NCBI RefSeq assembly: GCF_010211745.1
Contig: NZ_PDWQ01000004.1
Location: 1 to 64,000 of the forward strand
Reading direction: 5' to 3'
DNA from: Pseudoxanthomonas kalamensis DSM 18571
GTDB lineage: Bacteria > Pseudomonadota > Gammaproteobacteria > Xanthomonadales > Xanthomonadaceae
DNA: 64,000 bases
Shown here: piece after piece, positions 5,139 through 51,053 of the stretch
Layout of the letters: each line of letters begins with the position of its first letter
Position numbering within the stretch: position 1 is the first letter of the stretch
The notes under the pieces: generated by a model
What the model was told of the DNA's origin: nothing
The model's input: the letters and a program-made list of their open reading frames with translations, nothing else
Databases searched by the model: none
Made by a program: the position numbers and the translations under genes

Positions 5139-8087
5139 TCAGGCGTTGTGCCGCCCGTCCTCGCCATCGGTCGCCGCCGCGTCGTCGGCCGCCAGCGTCG
5201 TAGCTGACAGTTCGCCGGTTTCGGCGTCTTCGTCGTCTTCCGATTCGACCGGCAGCGACGCCGGGGAAGGATCGATCAGGTGACGGATCACCGAGGCCGG
5301 GGTGTCGATATCGGCGGTGAAGAACAGCGAGCCGTTGTAATCCGGCTCCGGTGATGCCACAGGAGCAGCGGCGATGATCGTCGTCTCCTCGGCAATGGCT
5401 TCGGTTTCGGCAACTGATGCCGGAACGGGCTCCGCTTCCTGCACGATCGCTTGCGCATCGACCCTCTGCTCCGGTAGCGGAGTCCCTTCGAGGGTGCCGA
5501 TTTCGTCGGAAAGCGCATTCGCGATTTCCGCGACACTGGCCGTGACTTCTGTCGGTGCAGGCGTTTCGGTCGGAACGTCGGCCTCGGTGCCCTGGGCCTC
5601 GAACAGCGAGACCTGGGGCGTCGTCGCAACAACGGTTTCAGTTTCGACGGCGACGTCCGCGACGGCAGCTGGTAATACCGGCTCCGGAACAGATTCCTCC
5701 GGTGCAACCGCAGCCGCGCGAACTTCCGGCTGCGCCGCCGCCGGGATGGCGACGTCGTCGAAGTCGAATTCCGGCTGCGCTTGACTGATGGCGATTACCG
5801 TGTCGTCGCCCGACATATCGTTGTCGGCACTGGTCTCGTTCTCGCTACCGGTCGCGGCGGCATCGCCGGTCTTGCGGCGACGGCGTCCGCCACGGCGCCC
5901 TCGGCGGCGGCGGCTGCCGCCCTCGGCATTGCCTTCTGCCGCAGCCTCAGCAGCCGGGTTGGCGGCATCGGTTGCTGTCGTCGCGACGGCTTCGACCTGC
6001 GGCAGCGCATCATCGGCGACCGCGGCCGGAACGGCAGCCGCTACGGCGACGGGATCGACCGGCGCGGTTTCGGCTTCCGCAGCGACCGGAGCCGGCTTGG
6101 GCGTCGTTTCCTTGCGCGGCGGGCGCGGCGACTTTTGCTTGGTCGGCTGCGGAGTGTCGTCCTTGTTCTTGTTCGAGGTCTTGCCGGTCGCTTGCTGCTG
6201 CGATTTGCCGGATGCGCGGCTGTCGTCGCGGCGCGATTCCTGGCGGTTCTTGCCGCCATTGCGGCCCTGGCCATTGTTGCGGCCATTGCGGCGCTGGCGG
6301 GAATCCCGCTGTGAGGTCTCGGGCGCAGCCTTGCGGGTCTGTTCGGCCAGGGTCGGTTCGGGTGCCGTGTCGGCGCTGCCGAGCAGGCGCTTGAACCAGC
6401 CGAACACACCGCCGGAGGCGGGTGCCTGCACCGGGGCGGGGGCCGCCGCCGCAACCGGGGCCGGCTCGGGCTCGCGCACCGGAGCCGGCTGCGTGTGCTT
6501 GACCGAAGTCACCGCCGGGGCCGGCGGGATGTTCAGCTGCGACTTGCTCAGTGCATGCACCGGCAGCTTGCGCGGGGTGCCACGCTGGTAGCTGGGCTTG
6601 CCGGATTCCTCGCTGAGCTCGTTCTCGCGGATGCGGGTGACTTCGTAGTGCGGGGTCTGCAACTGCTCGTCGGCGACGATGATGATCGGCGCGTCATGGC
6701 GCTGCTCGATTTCGCGCAGTGCGCCGCGCTTCTCGTTGAGCAGGTAGTTGGCGATCTCGATAGGCGCCTGCACCAGCACTTGGCCAGTGTTGTCCTTCAT
6801 CGCGTGCTCTTCGGCCACGCGGATGATCGACAGCGACAGCGATTCGACGCTGCGCATGCGGCCGTGGCCCTCGCAGCGCGGGCAGACGATCTGGCTGGAT
6901 TCGCCGAGGCTTGGACGCAGGCGCTGGCGGCTCATCTCCATCAGGCCGAACTTGGAGATGCGGCCGAGCTGCACGCGCGCGCGGTCGTACTTCAGCGCAC
7001 CCTGCAGGCGGTTCTCGACCTCGCGCTGGTGCTTGTTCGAGGCCATGTCGATGAAGTCGATCACCACCAGGCCGCCCAGATCGCGCAGGCGCAGCTGGCG
7101 GGCGACTTCGTCGGCGGCTTCCAGATTGGTGTGGAACGCGGTTTCCTCGATGTCGCCGCCCTTGGTGGCGCGCGCCGAGTTGACGTCGATCGCGGTCAGG
7201 GCCTCGGTCTGGTCGACCACGATGGCGCCGCCGGACGGCAGCCGCACTTCGCGCTCGTAGGCGGCCTCGATCTGCGATTCGATCTGGAAACGGTTGAACA
7301 GCGGAATATCGTCGGTGTAGTGCTTCAGCTTGCGCAGGTTCTGCGGCATGACCTGCTGCATGAACTCGGTCGCGGTCTGGTGCATTTCCTCGGTGTCGAC
7401 CAGGATCTCGCCGATGTCGGCGCGCAGGTAGTCGCGCAGGGCACGGACGATCAGCCGGCTTTCCTGGTAGATCAGGAACGGGGCCGGCTTGCTGAGCGCG
7501 GCTTCGGCGATCGCACGCCAGACGCTGAGCAGGTAGTCCAGGTCCCATTGCAGTTCTTCGGCGTCGCGGCCGACGCCGGCGGTGCGGATGATCACGCCCA
7601 TCTCGTCGGGGATGTTCAGCGCGTCCATCGCCCGCTTCAGTTCGGCGCGGTCTTCGCCTTCGATCCGGCGCGAAACGCCGCCGGCGCTGGGCGAGTTGGG
7701 CATCAGCACCATGTAGCGGCCGGCCAGCGAGATGAAGGTGGTCAGCGCGGCACCCTTGTTTCCGCGTTCGTCCTTGTCGACCTGGACCACCACTTCCTGG
7801 CCTTCACGCAGCAGCTCGCGCAGGTTGCCGGACTTGTGGTCGGCACCGGCCTGGAAGTAGTCGCGGGAGATTTCCTTCAGCGGCAGGAAGCCGTGGCGTT
7901 CGGCGCCGTAGTCGACGAAGGCCGCTTCCAGCGAGGGCTCGAGCCGGGTGATGCGGCCCTTGTAGATGTTGGACTTGCGTTGTTCCCTGGACGGCTGCTC
8001 GATGTCGATGTCATACAGGGTCTGTCCGTCGACGATGGCCACGCGCAGTTCTTCCGCCTGCGTGGCATTGATCAGCATACGCTTCAT
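5139..8087 (-). CDS. rne: Ribonuclease E
   Basis: 982-aa endoribonuclease, core of the RNA degradosome and of rRNA/tRNA processing. The catalytic half runs from [11 protein letters not shown]1 domain (~36-118), 5'-monophosphate sensor/RNase H region, and DNase I-like site with the metal Asp residues in [14 protein letters not shown] (~300) and VVIDFIDM (~345), then the zinc-link cysteines CPRCEG (~403). After about residue 520 the protein is low-complexity, with proline/alanine/glutamate tracts and a basic run (RRRRGRRGG), the usual RNA-binding and scaffold tail. The start at 8087 is the family start. It is divergent from rluC, as in E. coli. Confidence 0.96.
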
Positions 8088-40552: not shown

Positions 40553-41104
40553 ATGGATTGGACGGCATTGGGCGCGCTGGGGACATGGGCTGCGGTTGTC
40601 GCCGCACTCGCTATTGCCTTGAAAGACACGCTTCTGCGATGGAAGGAACGTTCAGCACGGCATATTTTGACGGCCGCCAATATTTTCCCTGAGGTTGCTC
40701 AAACCAAGAATGCCTTTGAAACTCTTATCAACGAAACTGCGCCTGAAGCGTTGCCAGAACCATCGGCCCAAGAACTTCGAGATGCCTGCGATCGCTTCCT
40801 GTCTGTAGCTGAGAATCTTGGACTACAACACCTCGCCGGGCACGCAGACCAAGTTGATGCATTGCCAGAACATATCCTGATTCCCTTGGTCAAGGCCATA
40901 ACTGTTACCAGGATGCTAGTACACAACGGTTCGATTGCTCAGAAGATTGACTGGGCAGAAACCGATGACGGACTCCGTTACGCTTTGCACGAATGGCGAG
41001 AACAAAGCCAAAGCGTTGTTGGTTCACTGAAGTGGGTTGAGCAAGGAATAGAACGATTCATGCGGACACGCCGATGGAGCAATCCAGAAGACTTCGGTTG
41101 GTAG
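40553..41104 (+). CDS. Hypothetical membrane-anchored protein
   Basis: 183 aa, not recognised. One N-terminal hydrophobic helix (ALGTWAAVVAALAIALKDTL, about residues 6-25) is followed by a helical soluble domain without cysteines. GAGGTG sits just before the ATG at 40553. Codon use is clearly less GC-biased than rarA or crcB (many A/T third positions), which suggests horizontal acquisition. A 49-codon gene follows 13 nt later. The two lie outside the transposon, which starts at 41590. Confidence 0.7.
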   Translation: MDWTALGALGTWAAVVAALAIALKDTLLRWKERSARHILTAANIFPEVAQTKNAFETLINETAPEALPEPSAQELRDACDRFLSVAENLGLQHLAGHADQVDALPEHILIPLVKAITVTRMLVHNGSIAQKIDWAETDDGLRYALHEWREQSQSVVGSLKWVEQGIERFMRTRRWSNPEDFGW

Positions 41105-41584: not shown

Positions 41585-41589
41585 CCTGG
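41585..41589. repeat. Target-site duplication, left copy (CCTGG)
   Basis: CCTGG directly precedes the left terminal repeat and is repeated exactly after the right terminal repeat at 49211-49215. A 5-bp duplication is the rule for Tn7, Tn5053 and Mu-type DDE transposases. Confidence 0.85.
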
Positions 41590-41613
41590 TGTTGATTGCA
41601 GAGAATTTGGGGG
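41590..41613 (+). repeat. Left terminal inverted repeat
   Basis: Starts TGTTGATTGCAGAGAATTTG. Within the first ~120 nt the pentamer GCAGA recurs at 41598, 41621 and 41703, each followed by an A/T-rich tract. These are candidate TnsB binding sites, as Tn7-type ends carry several copies of a ~20-bp transposase site. Confidence 0.82.
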
Positions 41614-41813
41614 CAACGAGGCAGAAATACTGCATTTCGAAGTAAAGAAATCTGACGTGCCGGGTGCCCATTCAGAGTTGTTTGAGCCTCGGCTCGCATG
41701 CAGCAGAACTTTTTATTTGCAGGTTTGCAGTGTGCGTCTGGGCTGAGCTGTCTTTTTGTGCTCAAGTGGCGCTGGAAACTCTTAGGTCTCAGCACCGTCG
41801 GCTTGGGTACGCT

Positions 41814-41984
41814 TCAGATGCCTGTGCCTGGCAACAGGGAGCTCGTCGGAACGAACCCATCTTCCCACTGGCGGCCCCATTCCTTGATCGCCGCCCACTG
41901 CTCGGGCGTGAAATCAAGGATGTCGTCATCGATGGCTGGCGGCACAACGTCTTGGGATGGGCAGATTTCAGTTTTCTTGGTCAT
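41814..41984 (-). CDS. Possible small protein in the transposon left arm
   Basis: 56 codons from the ATG at 41984: MTKKTEICPSQDVVPPAI at the start, then an acidic DDDILDF, and EQWAAIKEWGRQWEDG. The composition is protein-like (amphipathic Trp-rich helix) but the ribosome site is weak. Just upstream on the same strand are remnants of another acidic reading frame (for example EEELLALMPELPEGEND) overlapping by ATGA. The arrangement recalls small antitoxin-like gene pairs; no family is recognised. Confidence 0.35.
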   Translation of the reverse strand: MTKKTEICPSQDVVPPAIDDDILDFTPEQWAAIKEWGRQWEDGFVPTSSLLPGTGI

Positions 41985-42117
41985 GATCTTCGTCTATTCC
42001 GGGGTCTGAGGAGTCGTCGTCGATCATTCTCACCTTCGGGCAGTTCGGGCATCAGAGCCAGCAATTCTTCCTCTGACTTCGTCTGTATAGATCACCACCT
42101 ACCCTTCGGTACGAACT

Positions 42118-43061
42118 TTAGCGCGCTTTTCTGCCGCTGGTGATACCCCGTCGCTTACTCACTGGCTTTCGCTGCTTCAACGGGATCTCGCTTCGCCGAA
42201 TCGCCGCTTCCAAGGCCGCGGGTAGATCCTGGAACTTTGCCAGTTGCTTTTCGATCGCATCGGCACGAGCGCGCTCGATGCCGGCGACCCGGCTCGCCTC
42301 GGCGGCCGTTGCTTTGGCCAATTCTGCGGCCTGCCGCAGCGATTTCTCGATGGCAGCATGCTCCTTGGTCATGGTAGCCAACCGAGATTGCAGTTCCTTG
42401 GCCTCCTGACGAGCGCGATCGATCTCAGTATGAGCGCGATCCTCGACAGCTCGCACATGTTGAGCAAGTCCTTCGCGTTCGGAGCGGGCGGCGTGCTGCA
42501 ACTCCTGTATGCGCACGTCGAGGGATTGCCGTGCGGTATCTGCTTCTACAACCCCGGCGAGCGCAGCATCACGTTGCCGGATAATTTCCTCAACTCGCCC
42601 CTCGAACTGGCTGACCAGCCGTTGCAGCTCAGCGGCCTGGGTTGTGGCAAGTCGTTCGGCCTGGGCAGCGGCGTCCACCTTTTGACGCAGTGCCGCAGCT
42701 TCGGCAGCGAAGCCCTCCTGTTCCTGTCGGAGCGCTCCCTGTTCCGCCTGCAAGGCGGCGCGGTCGGCGGCAAGTGCTTCCGAGGCAGCGGTATGGGTAT
42801 GCTCGAGCGCCAACGCCCACCACTCCCCTGCCAGAGCGGCAACCGCCTCTGGCGCGTCTGGAACTGCCAAGTGGGTTCGCTGACCCTGCAGCCGATCACC
42901 GAGCCCCCGCCACCAGGTCTCCAGCCAGCGCGTGACTGTGTTCGGTGAACCGGTGCCCAAATGCGCGCGAATGCGCTCGACGGTCGGGTCGGCCGCTCGC
43001 CGATAGCGACGATCTCATCGGCCGCGGTATGGACGTCGGATTCGGTAATCCCTCGGGCCAT
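42118..43061 (-). pseudogene. KfrA-like DNA-binding coiled-coil protein, frameshifted
   Basis: The start ATG at 43061 has a strong AGGAGG site and encodes ESDVHTAADEIVAIGERPT, the beginning of the KfrA N-terminal DNA-binding domain. The matching continuation (VERIRAHLGTGSPNTVTRW) lies in another frame and runs to 42118 through a long coiled coil rich in Ala/Gln/Glu/Arg. The frames are separated by a tandem duplication of GTCGG (42983-42992, plus strand). With one copy the gene would encode 312 aa without interruption. KfrA proteins are plasmid-borne DNA-binding, filament-forming regulators; a role in the transposon is unknown. Confidence 0.85.
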
Positions 43062-43545
43062 GAAAGTGCCTCCTACGCGAGTGCCCTACTCTGTTGATTA
43101 TGTACTCACGATAAGTGATGAGCATCGGAGTCATGCGAATCAGACCCAACTTCGCCAACAGGACGCCATGAATCTCCACTACCCTTTCCATCGGGAGTTC
43201 GACGGGGCCGGTAAGGTCCCATAAGAGAGATTCATACAGTGCTTTGGCTTCGTATATGCGGGGGTCTTCATGAACCACATCCTTAAGCCATTTCGAATTG
43301 ATCCCCTTGAGTGCTCCCGGGTCGTGGCCGTCATGAAAATACCTTTCGAAGGTCCTGCGCCTTCCTCGCTGCTCTGACGCTTGGGCATCTGTCGGCGTCC
43401 CCTCATCAATCTTTTTCAACCAGAAGTCATCCACCTTCTGCCAGGAATCAGCACCGGGGGTCAGGTAATACACCAGCCAGGCCCACAGCCGGTTCCGCGT
43501 GCGTAAGGAAACATCCGTCGGCTTAGGTCCGGGGGTTTTCTTCAC
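43015..43545 (-). CDS. Hypothetical transposon protein
   Basis: 176 aa from a GTG at 43545 with GGAG 8 nt upstream. Basic N-terminus KKTPGPKPTDVSLRTRNRLW, a central KRG/RRR-rich region, and a basic C-terminus (RRRHFHGPRDYRIRRPYRGR). No catalytic motif is visible. Its last 47 nt overlap the start of the KfrA-like gene, so the two form an operon divergent from the tns side. A DNA-associated role is suggested only by charge and partner. Confidence 0.65.
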   Translation of the reverse strand: MKKTPGPKPTDVSLRTRNRLWAWLVYYLTPGADSWQKVDDFWLKKIDEGTPTDAQASEQRGRRRTFERYFHDGHDPGALKGINSKWLKDVVHEDPRIYEAKALYESLLWDLTGPVELPMERVVEIHGVLLAKLGLIRMTPMLITYREYIINRVGHSRRRHFHGPRDYRIRRPYRGR

Positions 43546-43663
43546 CGTATCGTCTCCGTTGGATGGCAATTGCCCGGCAAATGGCATGCCACAAATGCTT
43601 CGGGGAGTATGCAACCTTCTGGTGCCACTACCGGCCATTAAGGGGCGCTAGGCGCCACCAACC
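43546..43663. promoter_or_regulatory. Divergent promoter region inside the transposon
   Basis: This 118-nt gap separates the two divergent transposon operons. It contains an inverted repeat GGCGC-TAG-GCGCC (43644-43656) ending 7 nt before the small DNA-binding-protein start. It is a plausible operator for that protein or for KfrA-like binding; unproven. Confidence 0.4.
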
Positions 43664-43960
43664 ATGGAAAGCCACCCGCACCCACCCCATCCGAACGACG
43701 TGGTCAAGGCCCTCGTGGACGTCTACGGTGAAGTCGTAGGTGGGAAGGCTCTGCACCGTTGCCTAGGATTTCGTAGCACCAGATCATTTCAGCGTGCACT
43801 GCAGGCTGGGAATCTGCCGGTGCAGACCTTTTTGCTTCCTGGACGGCGGGGACGGTTCGCTCGGACGCGGGACATTGCGCTGTGGGTCAAACAGCTCGGC
43901 CAGAAGCCTGAATTGGCGGACGTCATGCTCATCACAGACCATACCCGCACCAACCAATAA
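43664..43960 (+). CDS. Small winged-helix-like DNA-binding protein
   Basis: 98 aa. The pattern LGFRSTRSFQRALQAGNLPV followed by PGRRGRFARTRDIALWVKQL is that of small excisionase/PrtN-like helix-turn-helix proteins: a short recognition helix, LPV, then an arginine-rich wing and an aliphatic helix. The ribosome site is weak. It precedes the tns genes by about 200 nt on the same strand. Likely a regulator of transposition or an accessory end-binding protein; inferred from fold pattern and position. Confidence 0.65.
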   Translation: MESHPHPPHPNDVVKALVDVYGEVVGGKALHRCLGFRSTRSFQRALQAGNLPVQTFLLPGRRGRFARTRDIALWVKQLGQKPELADVMLITDHTRTNQ

Positions 43961-44023
43961 GGAGGGACAATTAGCTCAATCGGAAGACGTCGCGACGTGT
44001 CATCGACGTTACCCACAACGCGA

Positions 44024-44045
44024 AAAGCCCCTGCGAAGAGGGGCC
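44024..44045. terminator. Hairpin between the small regulator and the tns operon
   Basis: A 6-bp stem GCCCCT (44027-44032) / AGGGGC (44039-44044) with a 6-nt loop. On the minus strand it is followed by TTTT; on the plus strand it is followed by only CTTA. It may insulate the tns operon from antisense or upstream transcription. The rest of the 205-nt gap (43961-44165) holds no supported gene. Confidence 0.4.
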
Positions 44046-44165
44046 TTAAGCGGATCTTAGTTTGGCGGCTAAGCCCGTTTAGGGGACCACGATTCGCTGG
44101 GCATGTCAAGGCTCTGCACTCATTCAGGTGCGAGGTCACGGGCGTCATTTGTCTGGAGAAAATCA

Positions 44166-44897
44166 GTGGTCCAACCAATCAATACCGTGGGCGAAGGCCG
44201 GGCAGCAAATCCTCTCGCCGACAACGCCGTGCCGTTCCAGCCCCGTCCGCTGACGCTAGCGGAGGAAAAGCGGCTCGATCTGTACTATTACCATTCCCCA
44301 AAAAACGGCGAGCGGCTTGTCAGCGTAGTGGAGCCTTGCCGGCTTGCGATCGCACTCGATCTCGAATTTGATGTCGACGTCACGAGCTACGTAGAGCGCC
44401 CTCGTGCCCTACTGGTTGACGAACGTGAAGTTGAACTCTGTTTCTGGATTAGACGTCGCAGCGCAGCTGAAACTTTCGTGGTTTTTCGACGTCAAGCAAA
44501 ACCAAGCGTCCCGGCACTCCGGGCAGAAGAAAAGCTCTGTTCCAAGCTCCTTGATGCCGCGAACGCCGCTGGGCTTTCGCTCACTATCCGGAAACCCGCC
44601 TCCATACTCGCTTCCCGGATTGCCAATGCAACCCGTCTAGAGCTTCTGCCGTACGTGCAAGCCGCAGCAAGATTAGAAGGTATCGACGTCTTCTTGAGCG
44701 CGATCCTCGCACACATGGGTTCCAATCCGAAGAGTTCGTTTCAGACCATTGAGCGTTCCCTGTGCGGCCCATTTGATTGGCGCGATGTTCGCAGTGCCAC
44801 CTGCTCACTCATCCATCGGGGTGTCCTGGGTATCGATTTCAGCGAGAAACTCAAGACTTCATCGGCGGTGTACTTGAAAGATGACCGCCATGCATGA
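44166..44897 (+). CDS. TnsA-like transposition protein, probably catalytically inactive
   Basis: 243 aa from a GTG with GGAG 7 nt upstream (an ATG at 44103 is possible). Position before tnsB and a partial pattern suggest TnsA: SVVEPCRLAIALDLEFDVDV then SYVERPRALLV resembles the E...(D/E)xDVxxYxEQP region of TnsA nucleases. Where TnsA has its catalytic PDF and VEVK motifs, this protein reads LCFW (91-94) and FVVFRR (104-109), so the metal-binding Asp and the Lys appear lost. The C-terminal half could be the TnsC-contacting domain. Homology is inferred from context and pattern. Confidence 0.6.
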   Translation: MVQPINTVGEGRAANPLADNAVPFQPRPLTLAEEKRLDLYYYHSPKNGERLVSVVEPCRLAIALDLEFDVDVTSYVERPRALLVDEREVELCFWIRRRSAAETFVVFRRQAKPSVPALRAEEKLCSKLLDAANAAGLSLTIRKPASILASRIANATRLELLPYVQAAARLEGIDVFLSAILAHMGSNPKSSFQTIERSLCGPFDWRDVRSATCSLIHRGVLGIDFSEKLKTSSAVYLKDDRHA

Positions 44898-46779
44898 TCT
44901 GACCTTCAAGGATCTATCGTCGTGGGACCAAATAAATCCCGTCGGGCTTTCGCCAAAAGAGCAAAAGGCGTTCCAATCGCGGCGGAAAGCGGTCACGGCA
45001 GTTACGAAGGGCCACACGATCGCGGCAGCGGCAAAGCGGCATGGCGTCAACGCCAGGACCCTGGCTTCCACAATCCAGAAGGCGACCTCCAAAGCTCCCG
45101 ACGGCAGGCCATGGGGATGGCGAGCTTGCCTGCCCCATCGCGTCAGACTGGCTCGCGCCACCGCGCCCGAGGAATTCCCACTAGTCGCCGGTCCTGGCGC
45201 GTTTTCCGCCTTTTTGCGGAAATCCACGGAGTTCCAGGAACGCCTTGTCAATTATTCGGGCCCGGTCCCGGGAAGAAACGCTCCCAGCACCAAATTCGAA
45301 GCATTCTTCAAGACGCTGTGCGCATGGATCCGAGAAGCGGTCCCCAAGGACCGTTACCCGGCCAACGACAAGACGTATGCACGCCGAAGCGTCATCGAGT
45401 TCATCAAGAAGCAGCGCAAGGGACACCCCTTCATTGATGACGACTTCCAGGTCGAAGATGCTGTGATCGCAAGCCAACTCGGCGAAGTCTTCGCGCTGCA
45501 GCTTGGGGACTGGGTTCAATACGACGGTCACAGCATGGATTGCGAATTCCATGTTGAAGGCGAAGACGCTGACGGAAACCCCTATCTCCAGCAGGTCACC
45601 AAGACTTGGCTGCTGGTCGGCTACATGGCGTTGTTACGTTTGTGCTCGAGTTGGATGCTCTCGTTCACGAAAAACTACAACGGGACCGACTTCAACCAGG
45701 TCTGTGCGAATAGCCTGCGGCAATGGACGCCTCGCGAAATCTTGGCGCCATCAATGACCTATGTCCCGGGAAGCGGCATTGGCACTGCCGAGGCGATCGG
45801 CTTCGTCACGTCGGGCGCGATCACCAGTATTGACAATGCCATGGCTCACAAGCTGGACGTGAATCGACAGCGGATGGCGGGAGAACTCCTCGGCGTAATC
45901 CATTTTGGCAGAAGTGGCGTTCCAGAGACGCGCGGGCATCTGGAAGCATGGAACAAGCGGATTGAGGAAGCGGTCGTCCGTGAACTCCCCGGGGGTTACC
46001 GCCCGGCAGGTGAAAACAGCGATACGCCAACCAGGACCAACTCGCACGCGCCAGAGAAATACCCAGTAGTGATCGAAGCACTCGAAGACCTCATGGACGT
46101 CACGATCAGTGCGTCGAATGTCACTGGCCTCGATGCTTTCCAATCACGGTCACCCACGCAGGTACTGCAGTCTTTTGTGGCTTCTGGCGGATGGATATTC
46201 GCAACGCGCGACCATGAAAGCAGAGCAAATGCCCTTTCGAAGCTGTCGTGCTCTGTGGTTTTTTCCGGATCAAAGCAGAAAAAGCGACAGCCATATGTGC
46301 GCTACCGGTACGCACGATACCGTTCGGTATCGTTGAAGAACCGCTGGGATCTCATTGGCGAAAGATTCGCCGCGCAGGTCGACATCCATGATGGCCGATT
46401 CCTTCGCCTATACAACGAAAAAGGCGAGCTCTTCGTCGTGTTGCGTGCAGCGCGTCCATGGGGACGATCTGCCCATAGCCTTGCGCTGCGTAAGTTGATC
46501 TACCGCTTGGCACGACAAGGACGCTTCGAGATCCGGGGCGTTAAAGACGCTATGCCGGTGTTCCGGGAGTACCTGCGCAAACAATTCCATGCAAGCCGGG
46601 AGGCAGCCACGATGGCGATCCAGTTCCGGCAGGACCTCAATGCCACCACCGCGTTGGGCACTACTGATTCGCGGCCAGCGTCAGCGCCTCCCCCGGGCAA
46701 ACCCGCGCCCTCCAGTGTTGATGTCTATGTGCCCCTCACTGGTCGGGTCACCTTGGGCAAGAAGGGAGATGCACGATGA
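44881..46779 (+). CDS. DDE transposase, TnsB/TniA family
   Basis: 632 aa. An N-terminal helix-turn-helix (TIAAAAKRHGVNARTLASTI, ~46-65) leads to an RNase H-like integrase core: first Asp in WVQYDGHSMD (D215, with D220 close by), second in AITSIDNAMAHK (D318), and Glu in ETRGHLEAW (E355), giving a DD36E spacing. The C-terminal third is basic and ends in a proline/alanine-rich tail, where TnsB proteins contact TnsC. It overlaps the tnsA-like gene by 17 nt and tnsC by ATGA. It should bind the terminal repeats and join 3' ends to target DNA. Confidence 0.88.
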   Translation: MTAMHDLTFKDLSSWDQINPVGLSPKEQKAFQSRRKAVTAVTKGHTIAAAAKRHGVNARTLASTIQKATSKAPDGRPWGWRACLPHRVRLARATAPEEFPLVAGPGAFSAFLRKSTEFQERLVNYSGPVPGRNAPSTKFEAFFKTLCAWIREAVPKDRYPANDKTYARRSVIEFIKKQRKGHPFIDDDFQVEDAVIASQLGEVFALQLGDWVQYDGHSMDCEFHVEGEDADGNPYLQQVTKTWLLVGYMALLRLCSSWMLSFTKNYNGTDFNQVCANSLRQWTPREILAPSMTYVPGSGIGTAEAIGFVTSGAITSIDNAMAHKLDVNRQRMAGELLGVIHFGRSGVPETRGHLEAWNKRIEEAVVRELPGGYRPAGENSDTPTRTNSHAPEKYPVVIEALEDLMDVTISASNVTGLDAFQSRSPTQVLQSFVASGGWIFATRDHESRANALSKLSCSVVFSGSKQKKRQPYVRYRYARYRSVSLKNRWDLIGERFAAQVDIHDGRFLRLYNEKGELFVVLRAARPWGRSAHSLALRKLIYRLARQGRFEIRGVKDAMPVFREYLRKQFHASREAATMAIQFRQDLNATTALGTTDSRPASAPPPGKPAPSSVDVYVPLTGRVTLGKKGDAR

Positions 46780-47729
46780 CTGTCTTCTACTGGCATGGAA
46801 AGCCCATCGTACCGTCACTCTCGATGGAGGACTCACTCACGAAGCTCGCGTCTGCCATAGAGGCGGAATACAAGGGGGCGGGCCTGCACTCCTTGACTCG
46901 ATTCGGAAAGAGCACGCTCGCGGAGTACATCTATGCGTACCACGATTGGATAGACATCCCCTATGTGGCAAAGCGGGCTGATGTTCGATCCATCGGAAGT
47001 GGTGAAAGCGCGATGTTCGACTGGTTTCTCACACAAATCGGAGTCCAGCCAGTTGCACGCCAGCTTCCCGACCAGAAACTCAACAGGATCGTCAACACCG
47101 TCACCATGCAGTTGCAATCCGCGAGCGCGCGCCTCTATTTGCTCATTGTGGATGATGCCAATCTCATAGAGCCTGACGCCTTCCAGCACTTCATCACCAT
47201 CGACAATGCACTTGAAAAATCGGGAATTTCTCTCTTCGTCGTATTCTTGTTCCAGGACAATCACACCACTAGCAAGCGCGAACAGATCAATAAATTGGTT
47301 GTCTCCCCTCAGATTCGGAGTCGCTTCCTGACGCGTTACCACCGAATTTTTGGGATACGCGGACCAGATGACATTTTCGTCTTCATCCAGCGCTTTGAAG
47401 ATGAAGTGGAGATGGCGCTTGAGGCTGGGATCACGCTACCCAGGAGCATGGCGCCAGCGCTCTACGACTCGAATTGGCGCATGCGCAACGCGAGCGGCAT
47501 GATTTGGGAACAGGGCTGCATTCATCGCGCTGCCGCAGGTCACTCAGACATCGACGAGTGGCCGATGAAGGCATTCAGTCTGATCGTGTACTACCTGTCG
47601 ACACGTGTGATCTGCGAGCCCGGTTTCACTGGCTTCACGACGGAACATATAGATCAGGCCATACGGTTCTCCGACCTCGCCGCATTTGACGGCGAATCCG
47701 GTGCGGTGGAGTTCAGCGATGATCCCTAG
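46776..47729 (+). CDS. AAA+ transposition regulator, TnsC/TniB family
   Basis: 317 aa. The P-loop is TRFGKSTLAEYIY (~41-53), slightly degenerate at its first glycine position. Walker B is LYLLIVDDANLIE (~120-132), followed by an arginine-rich sensor region (SPQIRSRFLTRYHR). TnsC proteins polymerise on target DNA with ATP and link the target selector to the transposase. GGGAG lies 7 nt before the ATG. Confidence 0.88.
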   Translation: MTVFYWHGKPIVPSLSMEDSLTKLASAIEAEYKGAGLHSLTRFGKSTLAEYIYAYHDWIDIPYVAKRADVRSIGSGESAMFDWFLTQIGVQPVARQLPDQKLNRIVNTVTMQLQSASARLYLLIVDDANLIEPDAFQHFITIDNALEKSGISLFVVFLFQDNHTTSKREQINKLVVSPQIRSRFLTRYHRIFGIRGPDDIFVFIQRFEDEVEMALEAGITLPRSMAPALYDSNWRMRNASGMIWEQGCIHRAAAGHSDIDEWPMKAFSLIVYYLSTRVICEPGFTGFTTEHIDQAIRFSDLAAFDGESGAVEFSDDP

Positions 47730-49026
47730 TGATGGAACTCTTCTGACGATCGCTCATCGCGACTTCGCAGAGCTTCATGGCATATCGCCGCTTGGGCTCG
47801 TGGTTCAAGGACTGAGGATCAACTGCCTGCTTCCCGTGGATGCCTTTTGCACCATGGGCGTTCGGCTGACCTATGGTGAAGACTGGAGCCAACGGCTGTG
47901 TCTTTCCAAACGCCTGAAGGCCGCACTCTTGACCATGCTCCCCGCGGCGTCCGTGCTCGCCCCGATGTGGGAGCCTGAACACTGGCAAGCCTTTGGGGAC
48001 GGGCACAGGCACTGGCGGCCGATGTTGACGGCCTGCCCGGAATGCCTGAAGAGTGGATACCACTCAATGCTGTTCCAGATTCCATGGGTAGATCGCTGTC
48101 CATGGCACCGCGTTTCATTGACGACGCAGTGCACCACTTGTTCCAAGCCCTTGTGGCAAAGCATTGCACGCGACACCCCTCCCCTCCTGTGTGAGTGTGG
48201 GCATGACCCGGTCAGTGCCGAGGCGATGCTTCATGAGCCGGGCGAGCTCATTGAGCGTCGACGAACATCCTTGACGCGCTACATGGTTTGGGCGCTTGCA
48301 AGCAGGGCCAGAAGGGACGTGTTCGGACTCCGAGATGATCCCAGGGCTTGGGACGTTCTGGGCACGAGGCTTCTCGGCACCCGTCTGGCTTGGCACGAGT
48401 CAGGAACGCCAAACCGCAAAGTTCTCGCGAGGACCTCAACCGTTCATCACCCTGCCCCGCTTCCCAGTGGCGAGTGCCACGAGGACCTGGCGCGAATCGC
48501 ATCGGAAACCAGCCAGGCGAAAGACTTCTTTCTGGAACTCCCTGTCTCAGTCGAGAAGTCTATGAGGCGTGTATCTGCTTCGATCGCCTCAAAGTTCCCG
48601 CCTGACACCTTCACTGAACGAGAACGCGTCTTCTTGGGGATCACCACTGGTTCGGCTACCCCTGCCGAACGGCAGCCCCGTCCATCCGTCATTCTCTTGG
48701 CCGCATATCGGGTCAAAGACAGGTTGTTCTTCGACGGACGGATACTGTCCAAATCCGTGCAGGCGGTGCTTCAGGAAATATGTCTGGCCTTGGCCGAACA
48801 GCCCGGGGACCAAAGCCGCATCGGCGGATATCTTCGTGCTTACGAGCGCATCCTGTCTCGCGGGTATGCCGGCGCGGCTTACCACGCGCTATCCAAGCTC
48901 GCATCCCCGAGCAGTCCAAGCACGGCCGCGTTCTGGAGACCGGTTGTTATGGTCCGGCGGCGAAAACAGACAAGTAGGCTGACCATCCTGTGGTTACGAG
49001 ACCGGCCGCCAACGACGGACACATGA
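47719..49026 (+). CDS. tniQ: TniQ/TnsD-family target-selection protein
   Basis: 435 aa. The TniQ domain includes the zinc-finger pattern ACPECLKSGYH (C106, C109), CPWHRVSL (C127, H130), CTTCSKPLW (C138, C141) and a further LLCECG. An HTH-rich C-terminal half follows. The start at 47719 is chosen for GGAG 7 nt upstream; it overlaps tnsC by 11 nt. In Tn7-type elements TniQ/TnsD recognises the insertion site. With no CRISPR components around, this one probably binds DNA directly. At 435 aa it is between short TniQ and full TnsD. Confidence 0.88.
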   Translation: MIPSDGTLLTIAHRDFAELHGISPLGLVVQGLRINCLLPVDAFCTMGVRLTYGEDWSQRLCLSKRLKAALLTMLPAASVLAPMWEPEHWQAFGDGHRHWRPMLTACPECLKSGYHSMLFQIPWVDRCPWHRVSLTTQCTTCSKPLWQSIARDTPPLLCECGHDPVSAEAMLHEPGELIERRRTSLTRYMVWALASRARRDVFGLRDDPRAWDVLGTRLLGTRLAWHESGTPNRKVLARTSTVHHPAPLPSGECHEDLARIASETSQAKDFFLELPVSVEKSMRRVSASIASKFPPDTFTERERVFLGITTGSATPAERQPRPSVILLAAYRVKDRLFFDGRILSKSVQAVLQEICLALAEQPGDQSRIGGYLRAYERILSRGYAGAAYHALSKLASPSSPSTAAFWRPVVMVRRRKQTSRLTILWLRDRPPTTDT

Positions 49027-49085
49027 AAGCCACTGGGCACGGAACGCCATTATCCTTAACAATGTGGCTCCCAGCGGGCACAAAA

Positions 49086-49121
49086 GTCTGCGGCTGCTCC
49101 CCATTCCGCAGATTTGTCTGC
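49086..49121 (+). terminator. Hairpin after tniQ; also repeated GCAGA motifs of the right end
   Basis: A 7-bp stem TCTGCGG (49087-49093) / CCGCAGA (49106-49112) is followed by TTTG, so it can act as a weak terminator for the tns operon. The same region carries GCAGA motifs (inverted at 49087 and 49117) like those in the left arm, so transposase binding is an alternative reading. Confidence 0.45.
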
Positions 49122-49186
49122 AGCAGACCCGGTAGGCTAGCGCATGCTCCGTAGAAAAATCATTAGCAAAAACAATTCGTTACAAC

Positions 49187-49210
49187 TCACCGAATTCTCT
49201 ACCGTAAACA
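49187..49210 (-). repeat. Right terminal inverted repeat
   Basis: Read inward on the minus strand it begins TGTTTACGGTAGAGAATTCG and matches the left end at 17 of 23 positions, with the AGAGAATT block identical. Confidence 0.82.
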
Positions 49211-49215
49211 CCTGG
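49211..49215. repeat. Target-site duplication, right copy (CCTGG)
   Basis: Exact repeat of 41585-41589, 41 nt before the copA start codon. Confidence 0.85.
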
Positions 49216-49256: not shown

Positions 49257-51053
49257 ATGACTTTTCCACCTGGCATCACCCGCAGGCGTTTCGTCACCGG
49301 TATCGGCCTCAGTTTGCTGGCAGCGCGGCTGCATGCCGCATCAAGCTCCGCAACCGCTGTTGCGAACGGCGTGCCCGAACTGTCCGGAACCCATTTCGAA
49401 CTCGGCATCGCCGCACTGCCGGTGACGCTGGGCAATGGTCCCGCCGCCGCGATCGCCGTCAACGGCTCATTGCCGGCGCCGACCTTGCGCTGGCGCGAAG
49501 GCGACACCGTGCATTTGCGGGTGCGCAATCACATCGAACGCGACACCTCGCTGCACTGGCACGGCATCCTGCTGCCGGCGGTGATGGACGGCGTGCCGGG
49601 ACTGAGCTTCCACGGCATCGCGCCCGGCGGTTTCTACGACTACCGTTTCCCGCTGCGCCAATCCGGCACCTACTGGTACCACGCCCACTCCAGCATGCAG
49701 GAAGCCCAGGGCGTATACGGCGCCATCGTGGTCGAACCGCGCGATGGCGAGCGGCATGCCGCCGACCGCGACTACGTGCTGTTGCTGTCCGACTGGAGCG
49801 ACGAGGATCCGCACGCCATCCTGCGCAAGCTCAAGATCCAGGCCGACTACTACAACCGGCAGAAACCGACCGTGGCCGACCTGTTCCGCGATGCCGGTCG
49901 CGACGGTTGGAAGGCGACACTGGCTGACCGCGCGGCCTGGGGCCGGATGCGGATGAACCCCAGCGACCTGGCCGACGTCAGCGGCCTGACCTACACCTAT
50001 CTGGTCAACGGCGTCCCGCCAGACGGCAACTGGACCGGCCTGTTCCGGCGCGGCGAGCGTATCCGCCTGCGCTTCATCAACGGCTCGGCGATGAGCTATT
50101 TCGACGTGCGCATTCCGGGGCTGAAGATGACGGTAATCGCCGCCGATGGGCAACCGGTGCATCCGGTCAGCATCGACGAATTCCGCATCGGCGTGGCCGA
50201 AATCCTGGATGTGCTGGTCGTCCCGGAAGAAGACCAGCCCTATACCGTGTTCGCCCAGGCGATGGATCGCAGCGGCTACGCGCGGGCGACGCTGTCGCCA
50301 CGCCCCGGCTTGCAGGCTCCGGTGCCGGAACCGGATGCGCGCGTGCTGCTGAGCATGGCCGACATGGGGCATGGCGGGCACGACATGGCGGGCATGCAGG
50401 ACCACGCTTCGATGGACCATGCGGCAATGGACCATGCTTCGATGGGGCACGCTTCCATGGATCACGGATCGATGGACCATGCCGACATGGATCACGCAGC
50501 GACGCCCTCCTCCGCGGCATCCGGCAACGGCATGATTTCGCATCCGGTCAGCGAAGCCGGCAATCCTGCCGTGGACATGCAGACGATGAGCCCTAGCCGG
50601 CGCCTGGACGATCCCGGCGTCGGCCTGCGCGACAACGGCCGCCGCGTGCTGACCTATGCCGACCTGCGCAGCGAGTTTCCCGACCCCGACCCGCGCGAGC
50701 CGGGCCGCACGCTGGAACTGCACCTGACCGGCAACATGGAGCGTTATGTCTGGGGCTTCGACGGCATCCCCTTTTCGCGCGCCGATCCGATCTGGCTGAA
50801 TTACGGCGAGCGCGTCCGCATCGTGCTGGTCAACGACACCATGATGGAGCACCCCATCCATCTGCACGGCATGTGGAGCGATCTGGAAAGCGCCGACGGC
50901 CAGTTCCAGTTGCGCAAGCACACGGTCAGCGTACCGCCCGGCAGCATCCGCAGCTTCCGCGTCAGTGCCGACGCGCTGGGGCGCTGGGCCTTCCACTGCC
51001 ACATGCTGCTACACATGGAGCTCGGCATGTTTCGCGAGGTGCGGGTCGAATGA
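49257..51053 (+). CDS. copA: Copper resistance multicopper oxidase CopA
   Basis: 598 aa with a Tat signal (ITRRRFVTGIGLSLLAARLHA). Periplasmic multicopper oxidase that oxidises Cu(I). Copper-ligand motifs: LHWHGILLP, TYWYHAHSSMQ, MEHPIHLHGMW and AFHCHMLLHMELGMF. Residues ~367-418 form a methionine/histidine-rich tract of MDHA-type repeats, expected to bind additional copper. The ribosome site at 49257 is poor. The reading frame stays open upstream into the transposon end, so the native start or leader may have been altered by the insertion. The copB ATG overlaps its stop. Confidence 0.95.
   Translation: MTFPPGITRRRFVTGIGLSLLAARLHAASSSATAVANGVPELSGTHFELGIAALPVTLGNGPAAAIAVNGSLPAPTLRWREGDTVHLRVRNHIERDTSLHWHGILLPAVMDGVPGLSFHGIAPGGFYDYRFPLRQSGTYWYHAHSSMQEAQGVYGAIVVEPRDGERHAADRDYVLLLSDWSDEDPHAILRKLKIQADYYNRQKPTVADLFRDAGRDGWKATLADRAAWGRMRMNPSDLADVSGLTYTYLVNGVPPDGNWTGLFRRGERIRLRFINGSAMSYFDVRIPGLKMTVIAADGQPVHPVSIDEFRIGVAEILDVLVVPEEDQPYTVFAQAMDRSGYARATLSPRPGLQAPVPEPDARVLLSMADMGHGGHDMAGMQDHASMDHAAMDHASMGHASMDHGSMDHADMDHAATPSSAASGNGMISHPVSEAGNPAVDMQTMSPSRRLDDPGVGLRDNGRRVLTYADLRSEFPDPDPREPGRTLELHLTGNMERYVWGFDGIPFSRADPIWLNYGERVRIVLVNDTMMEHPIHLHGMWSDLESADGQFQLRKHTVSVPPGSIRSFRVSADALGRWAFHCHMLLHMELGMFREVRVE

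Follow-up and report, generated by a model that had tools for sequence, protein, structure and literature searches.

According to a working definition (PMC11406308), Tn7-like transposons combine TnsB and TnsC with TnsA and/or TniQ. The survey passages available to us describe TnsA as either present, in elements that move by cut-and-paste, or absent, in replicative elements; the latter form cointegrates (PMC11406308), and tnsA-less branches typically acquire a resolvase or may depend on recA (PMC8649781). Mutants of the TnsA active site lose cut-and-paste and keep replicative transposition (PMC8649781). Here we describe a Tn7-like element of Pseudoxanthomonas kalamensis DSM 18571 that retains a TnsA homologue devoid of these catalytic residues. 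It lies at 41590–49210 (7,621 bp) of a 64,000-nt window, the first 64,000 nucleotides of contig NZ_PDWQ01000004.1, to which the element's coordinates refer, and judged from its sequence it is a transposon from a divergent lineage of Tn7-like elements, apparently complete and with almost no cargo. A preliminary description, made from the letters alone, had correctly named the host family Xanthomonadaceae and recognized the TnsABC-TniQ gene order, which open reading frame (ORF) order, profiles and alignments confirm. The element thus conforms to the working definition, by profile and alignment matches below Pfam cut-offs, and has the 5-bp duplication and matching ends of Tn7-like transposons; the TnsA nuclease residues needed for cut-and-paste, which the definition does not demand, are missing.

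Alignment by hhalign of 18 TnsAs of the lineage with seven reference TnsAs (six PF08722 hits and a Klebsiella grimontii plasmid relative) gave 97.5% with an E value of 6.5e-12 over 216 columns. In place of the Glu, Asp, and Lys of the references, which with the reference alignment we take to be the Tn7 nuclease triad, the element has Arg, Cys, and Arg. All three residues are kept in 7/7 references, whereas among 28 distinct Lysobacteraceae TnsAs the Glu and the Lys are kept in none (0/28 each) and the Asp in six. This set comprises 23 distinct homologues plus L011, L024, L026, L027, and L029; genomes G260 and G167 are counted through rows L038 and L040, and L025 and L028, being without TnsA, were left out. 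In G167 (L040), two tandem tnsA-like stretches (6422–6973 and 5728–6348, minus strand) both lack the catalytic residues. The gene adjoins tnsB at 28/30 loci, the remaining two being fragments. In the other core proteins, the TnsB triad and G44 and K45 of TnsC are each invariant in 22/22 sequences, and nine Cys/His positions of TniQ in 20/20. Outside the lineage, L081 (L130) and L083 retain all three TnsA residues; Asp and Lys are retained in L080 (L131) and L085, whose Glu region is cut off, and in L082, where the Glu column is unsure; the Robbsia plasmid copy L033 has neither Glu nor Lys. The Klebsiella plasmid relative L032 (4680–9168), with intact TnsA residues, carries nucleotidyltransferase, ThiF-like, Mov34-like, and SAVED genes just upstream, presumably a CBASS-like defence set and possibly cargo. 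Placing TnsB in a tree, as the preliminary description had proposed, united the 23 included elements with a catalytically dead TnsA, among 30 sequences, in one clade (support 100/99). L026, L027, and L029 are not in this tree, and the residue loss may therefore be older.

Since its TnsA is without cutting residues, the element probably moves by copying itself, not by cutting itself out. From these alignments we consider it likely that this divergent Tn7-like element transposes replicatively via cointegrates and keeps a non-cutting TnsA as a subunit. TniQ and TnsC would mark the target, and TnsB would cut the 3′ strands and join them with a 5-bp stagger. TnsA would no longer cleave the 5′ strands, and replication of the joined intermediate would yield a cointegrate, the product to be expected when 5′-strand cutting by TnsA is missing and the DDE transposase intact. 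Because the element carries no resolvase, resolution would fall to host recombination. TnsA may be retained as a structural or TnsC-contacting subunit, and two accessory genes, termed S and U here, probably regulate the transposase operon, together with a short minus-strand RNA in most lineage members. If this is true, a clade that has kept TnsA and erased its nuclease separates the structural role of TnsA from catalysis and makes that role testable.

Several observations weigh against replicative transposition or weaken the case for it. Firstly, acquisition of a resolvase is usual in tnsA-less branches (PMC8649781), but the element has none. Secondly, in the W subgroup, formed by the element itself (W), L034, L075, and L076, TnsA has a QxK motif, shifted downstream by four residues from the expected position, which might act in place of the lost residues. 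Moreover, AlphaFold models were poor (pLDDT 55 for TnsA and 38.7 for TnsB), so that the TnsA active site is not open to inspection in three dimensions, and the element is the sole lineage member with both ends found. The missing resolvase and the shifted QxK, as well as the retention of tnsA at nearly all loci, would fit a persisting cut-and-paste mechanism, with the 5′ strands cleaved either by the TnsA fold through different residues or by some other nuclease that host or element provides; yet QxK is absent from TnsAs outside the W subgroup and the scans of the element genes revealed no nuclease family, and we regard this alternative as unlikely. That the element is an immobile relic of a Tn7-like transposon, as its short U gene, weak small-RNA unit, and the single TnsB copy found in its genome could indicate, appears distinctly improbable given the open core frames, the exact target-site duplication (TSD) and ends, and the intact overlapping gene order.

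Like Tn7 and Tn7-like TnsABC-TniQ/TnsD elements, the transposon has the common gene order with a DDE TnsB, an AAA+ TnsC, and a zinc-finger TniQ, a 5-bp duplication, and several motif repeats per end. It differs from them in core proteins below Pfam gathering scores, in the lost TnsA nuclease residues, in the extra S and U genes and the minus-strand unit, and in that no fixed attachment site was seen. It is not Tn7 proper, as Pfam and NCBIfam scans gave no TnsE match and its right flank is copA, not the glmS attachment site. Nor does it belong to the CRISPR-associated transposons (CASTs): its proteins gave no cas match and Rfam no match, no search aimed at CRISPR arrays having been made. The preliminary description had likewise seen no cas genes, resolvase, or cargo, which holds for the scans run apart from kfrA; Pfam and NCBIfam revealed no resolvase among the element genes. 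The predicted cointegrate route is shared with Tn5053/Tn402 (TniABQR) and type V-K CASTs, replicative elements without TnsA, but the element retains a TnsA homologue and has neither cas genes nor the resolvase that, along with the absence of tnsA, marks Tn5053/Tn402.

The boundaries proposed in the preliminary description, including the CCTGG duplication, were upheld. The left end (LE; TGTTGATTGCAGAGAATT, first base 41590) shares a TGTT tip and altogether 17/24 positions with the reverse complement of the right end (RE; TGTTTACGGTAGAGAATT, last base of the element 49210), with exact CCTGG flanking both. In an initial scan, an exact 5-bp repeat accompanied only two TGT/ACA pairs, which scored 17/24 and 11/24. 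With the RE fixed, the LE was the top match across 12.1 kb upstream; dinucleotide shuffles of this sequence gave a TSD-exact match of 17/24 in 0/300 cases (largest 13). Without the TSD requirement shuffles do reach 17/24 (maximum over 40 shuffles), and the weight of the end call therefore lies in repeat and TSD together. An RE in register was found downstream of tniQ in 13 relatives (L034, L036, L037, L038, L040, L041, L042, L043, L045, L047, L051, L075, and L076), which supports the right end inferred here. It lies 166–385 bp past tniQ except in L076, where an insertion sequence (IS) between tniQ and RE extends the distance to 1285 bp. The tips read TGTTCA, TGTCTGC, or TGATTGAC, and an inner YAAS motif occurs at about position 29–30 in 12/13, the exception being L043; L049, with a doubtful apparent right end lacking the inner motif, was excluded. 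Similarity ends within about two bases of the RE base in three of four close pairs (L038 with L040/L041, L042/L043, and L075/L076), whereas between L040 and L041 it continues for about 23 bases. No LE was found in the relatives within the 0.1–72 kb of upstream sequence examined. The single-CCTGG empty junction that the preliminary description had envisaged was not found in three genomes of the same genus, where copA alone could be aligned. In L045, a motif of about 30 bp, likely a TnsB site, is repeated in tandem some five times between tniQ and RE, with divergence among the copies, and in L076 (12743–15385) tniQ is broken and a separate 320-aa transposase-like ORF is found between tniQ and RE.

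Table 1. Features of the element and its right flank (window positions).
Feature	Position	Strand	Remark
Target duplication, left copy CCTGG	41585–41589		exact 5-bp repeat
Left end (LE)	41590–41613	+	17/24 identity with right end; GYAGA motifs at either end
kfrA-like DNA-binding protein, probably cargo	42118–42960	-	PF11740 KfrA_N 4.7e-11
U gene, short member of family of unknown function	43015–43638	-	iterative profile
S gene, 98 aa, likely small DNA-binding regulator	43664–43960	+	conserved accessory upstream of tnsA
Candidate minus-strand small-RNA unit	44018–44109	-	TTGACA 44104–44109, hairpin near 44023–44047
tnsA homologue	44166–44897	+	catalytic Glu, Asp, Lys replaced by Arg, Cys, Arg
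tnsB, DDE transposase	44881–46779	+	D215, D318, E355
tnsC, AAA+ ATPase	46776–47729	+	G44-K45; AAA_22 23.5 bits (cut-off 27)
tniQ/tnsD-like zinc-finger protein, 435 aa	47719–49026	+	Cys/His set; PADLOC TniQ_IF 1.7e-5
Right end (RE)	49150–49210	-	in register with ends of 13 relatives
Target duplication, right copy CCTGG	49211–49215		exact 5-bp repeat
copA, multicopper oxidase of copper resistance, outside element	49257–51053	+	TIGR01480 6.7e-267

From the LE, the genes follow in the order kfrA-like and U (both minus strand), S (plus strand), tnsA, tnsB, tnsC, and tniQ, the core genes overlapping (Table 1). The start of tnsA is probably the GTG at 44166 (243 aa), the ORF itself opening at 44103, and that of tniQ probably the ATG at 47719. 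In the Pfam scan KfrA_N alone exceeded its cut-off. All four core proteins remained below gathering scores, with 15.3 bits for TniQ (cut-off 27), a weak helix-turn-helix hit only for TnsB, and, as for U and S, no match for TnsA; NCBIfam named none of the four. Among the relatives, AAA_22 matches 16/22 TnsCs, the TniQ model 8/20 TniQs, TnsA_N 1/21 TnsAs, and Mu-transpos_C and rve_3 1/22 and 2/22 TnsBs, respectively. Neither sequence nor profile searches of the PDB with TnsB gave a relevant hit, and a PF09299 search of the host genome gave no match, controls being equally silent.

The accessory genes had been suggested to mark a distinct lineage. For kfrA this does not hold, since it was matched in only one further locus, L047, where it stands outside the right end. 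The supposed 176-aa unknown is a short member (U, 207 aa when read from the first start codon) of a family in which lengths of about 340–450 aa prevail and which an iterated profile matched in 9/25 distinct loci. The 98-aa gene, S, is widely conserved (17/25 distinct loci, own locus included) and likely a small DNA-binding regulator; a homologue on a plasmid weakly matches the PrtN pyocin activator (E 0.026). This wide conservation had escaped the preliminary description, as had the erased TnsA active site and a minus-strand promoter–terminator unit, a candidate small RNA, in the gap between S and tnsA. For the latter, a strict test was fixed after an exploratory look: at least four bases of TTGACA, a spacer of 16–18, NANNNT, a G+C-rich hairpin, and a T-run. 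The count omits L032 and L033, which lie outside the lineage, L041 because of a contig edge, and L035 and L077, which duplicate L075 and L036, respectively. The minus strand passed in 13/22 Tn7-like loci and the plus strand in 2/22, while over 60 rounds of shuffled gaps a mean of 0.30 loci per round passed (maximum 1). Failures include the element itself, L034, L075, and L076; the element's own unit has the TTGACA and the hairpin, its -10 and T-run being weak.

Matches to S exist in 26 plasmid records as well. At 11 plasmid loci examined, the next genes are istA-istB of IS21 in nine (annotated in pieces for istA in L134), TniA-TniB-TniQ in one from Erythrobacteraceae, and TnsB/TnsC-like genes in one from Burkholderia pyrrocinia (profile 6.6e-37 and 1.1e-20). 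The strict test was passed on the minus strand in 8/11 and on the plus strand in 0/11; the other three look similar by eye and were left out of the count. For the nine istA-istB loci and the TniA-TniB-TniQ locus (L132–L140 and L142) the figure is 7/10. These IS21-family and TniABQ plasmid elements (e.g., Rms149, pWH01K) thus share with our element an S gene and a minus-strand unit ahead of the transposase operon and, in most, have a divergent unknown gene beside S (one of three IS21-side U genes tested matches the U profile), but they lack TnsA, and IS21 also TniQ; the IS21 S genes are placed by position upstream of istA-istB, not relative to IS21 ends. That operons of the IS21 and TniABQ types share the S/small-RNA module is a hint of one control layer common to AAA+-dependent transposons. 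Compared with shuffles, hairpin I of the small RNA showed no excess stability in the 13 Tn7-like loci (Fisher 0.37; 0.22 with an earlier choice of segment) and an excess in eight other loci (0.0003; both sets together 0.004). Rfam gave no match at gathering score in eight loci, and for the element described here none even with E values up to 5 allowed. A tRNA-like look near 43961–44000 was dropped; there is no tRNA there, no convincing second genomic copy, and no Rfam match.

That a portable cassette of S and a structured RNA, often with U, has joined three types of AAA+-dependent DDE transposons and steers or licenses transposition through RNA, while TnsA of the lineage is a non-cutting regulatory subunit, is a speculation to which we give little credence. 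CTCC occurs in the hairpin loop of 7/24 RNAs, a number that 0/500 loop shuffles reach (related loci counted apart), and such loops would suit anti-Shine–Dalgarno regulation. Target choice guided by the RNA is very doubtful: the arrangement of S, gap, and transposase with a minus-strand unit does precede three transposase types, but besides the CTCC loops, the longest RNA matches to the 250-bp right flanks, the only flanks compared, were 6–8 bases in seven elements (including L049 with its doubtful right end) and not above shuffles.

The RE lies 46 bp before the copA ATG. In relatives the right flank is a glk-like (L034), arsR-like (L036), or recJ-like (L043) 3′ end, named from reading the protein sequences, and in L041, L042, and L076, which come from different branches, one and the same HD-GYP-type gene follows at a distance of 92, 93, and 72 bp, respectively, its copy in L076 being shortened. 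Insertion sites vary, and the HD-GYP-type gene is at least one shared hot spot; the self-targeting mode assumed in the preliminary description is therefore not supported. The element has a single targeting gene for a TniQ/TnsD-like protein of 435 aa. According to Faure et al. (2023; PMC10293859, in the passages available), TniQ/TnsD proteins above 400 aa in dual loci suggest direct target selection, while a single one of intermediate length is classed as uncertain.

TnsB relatives occur in 42/297 genomes of the family (own genome included), in 51 plasmid records, and in none of the phage records; a TnsB profile found 10/369 genomes of the class, two of these being the own genome and one family member. 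The closest named relatives are from Lysobacter spongiae and Thermomonas sp. S9 (58–59% in TnsB), and within the genus a Pseudoxanthomonas dokdonensis contig (L077 = G191) has one. Faure et al. (2023; PMC10293859) searched by Pfam models at gathering cut-offs, and the models listed by Benler et al. (2021; PMC8649781) are for the most part the same, with CAST models added. Since the core proteins of the element miss the Pfam gathering scores, some lineage members may have escaped earlier surveys. The portions available of the open-licence literature on Tn7-like transposons, TnsA, and IS21 contained no description of the lineage or of the S/small-RNA module.

Left of the element, an orphan 183-aa gene (40553–41104) without Pfam match is perhaps an older insertion. 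The flanking copA contains a run of Met-Asp-His-rich repeats at 50400–50500.

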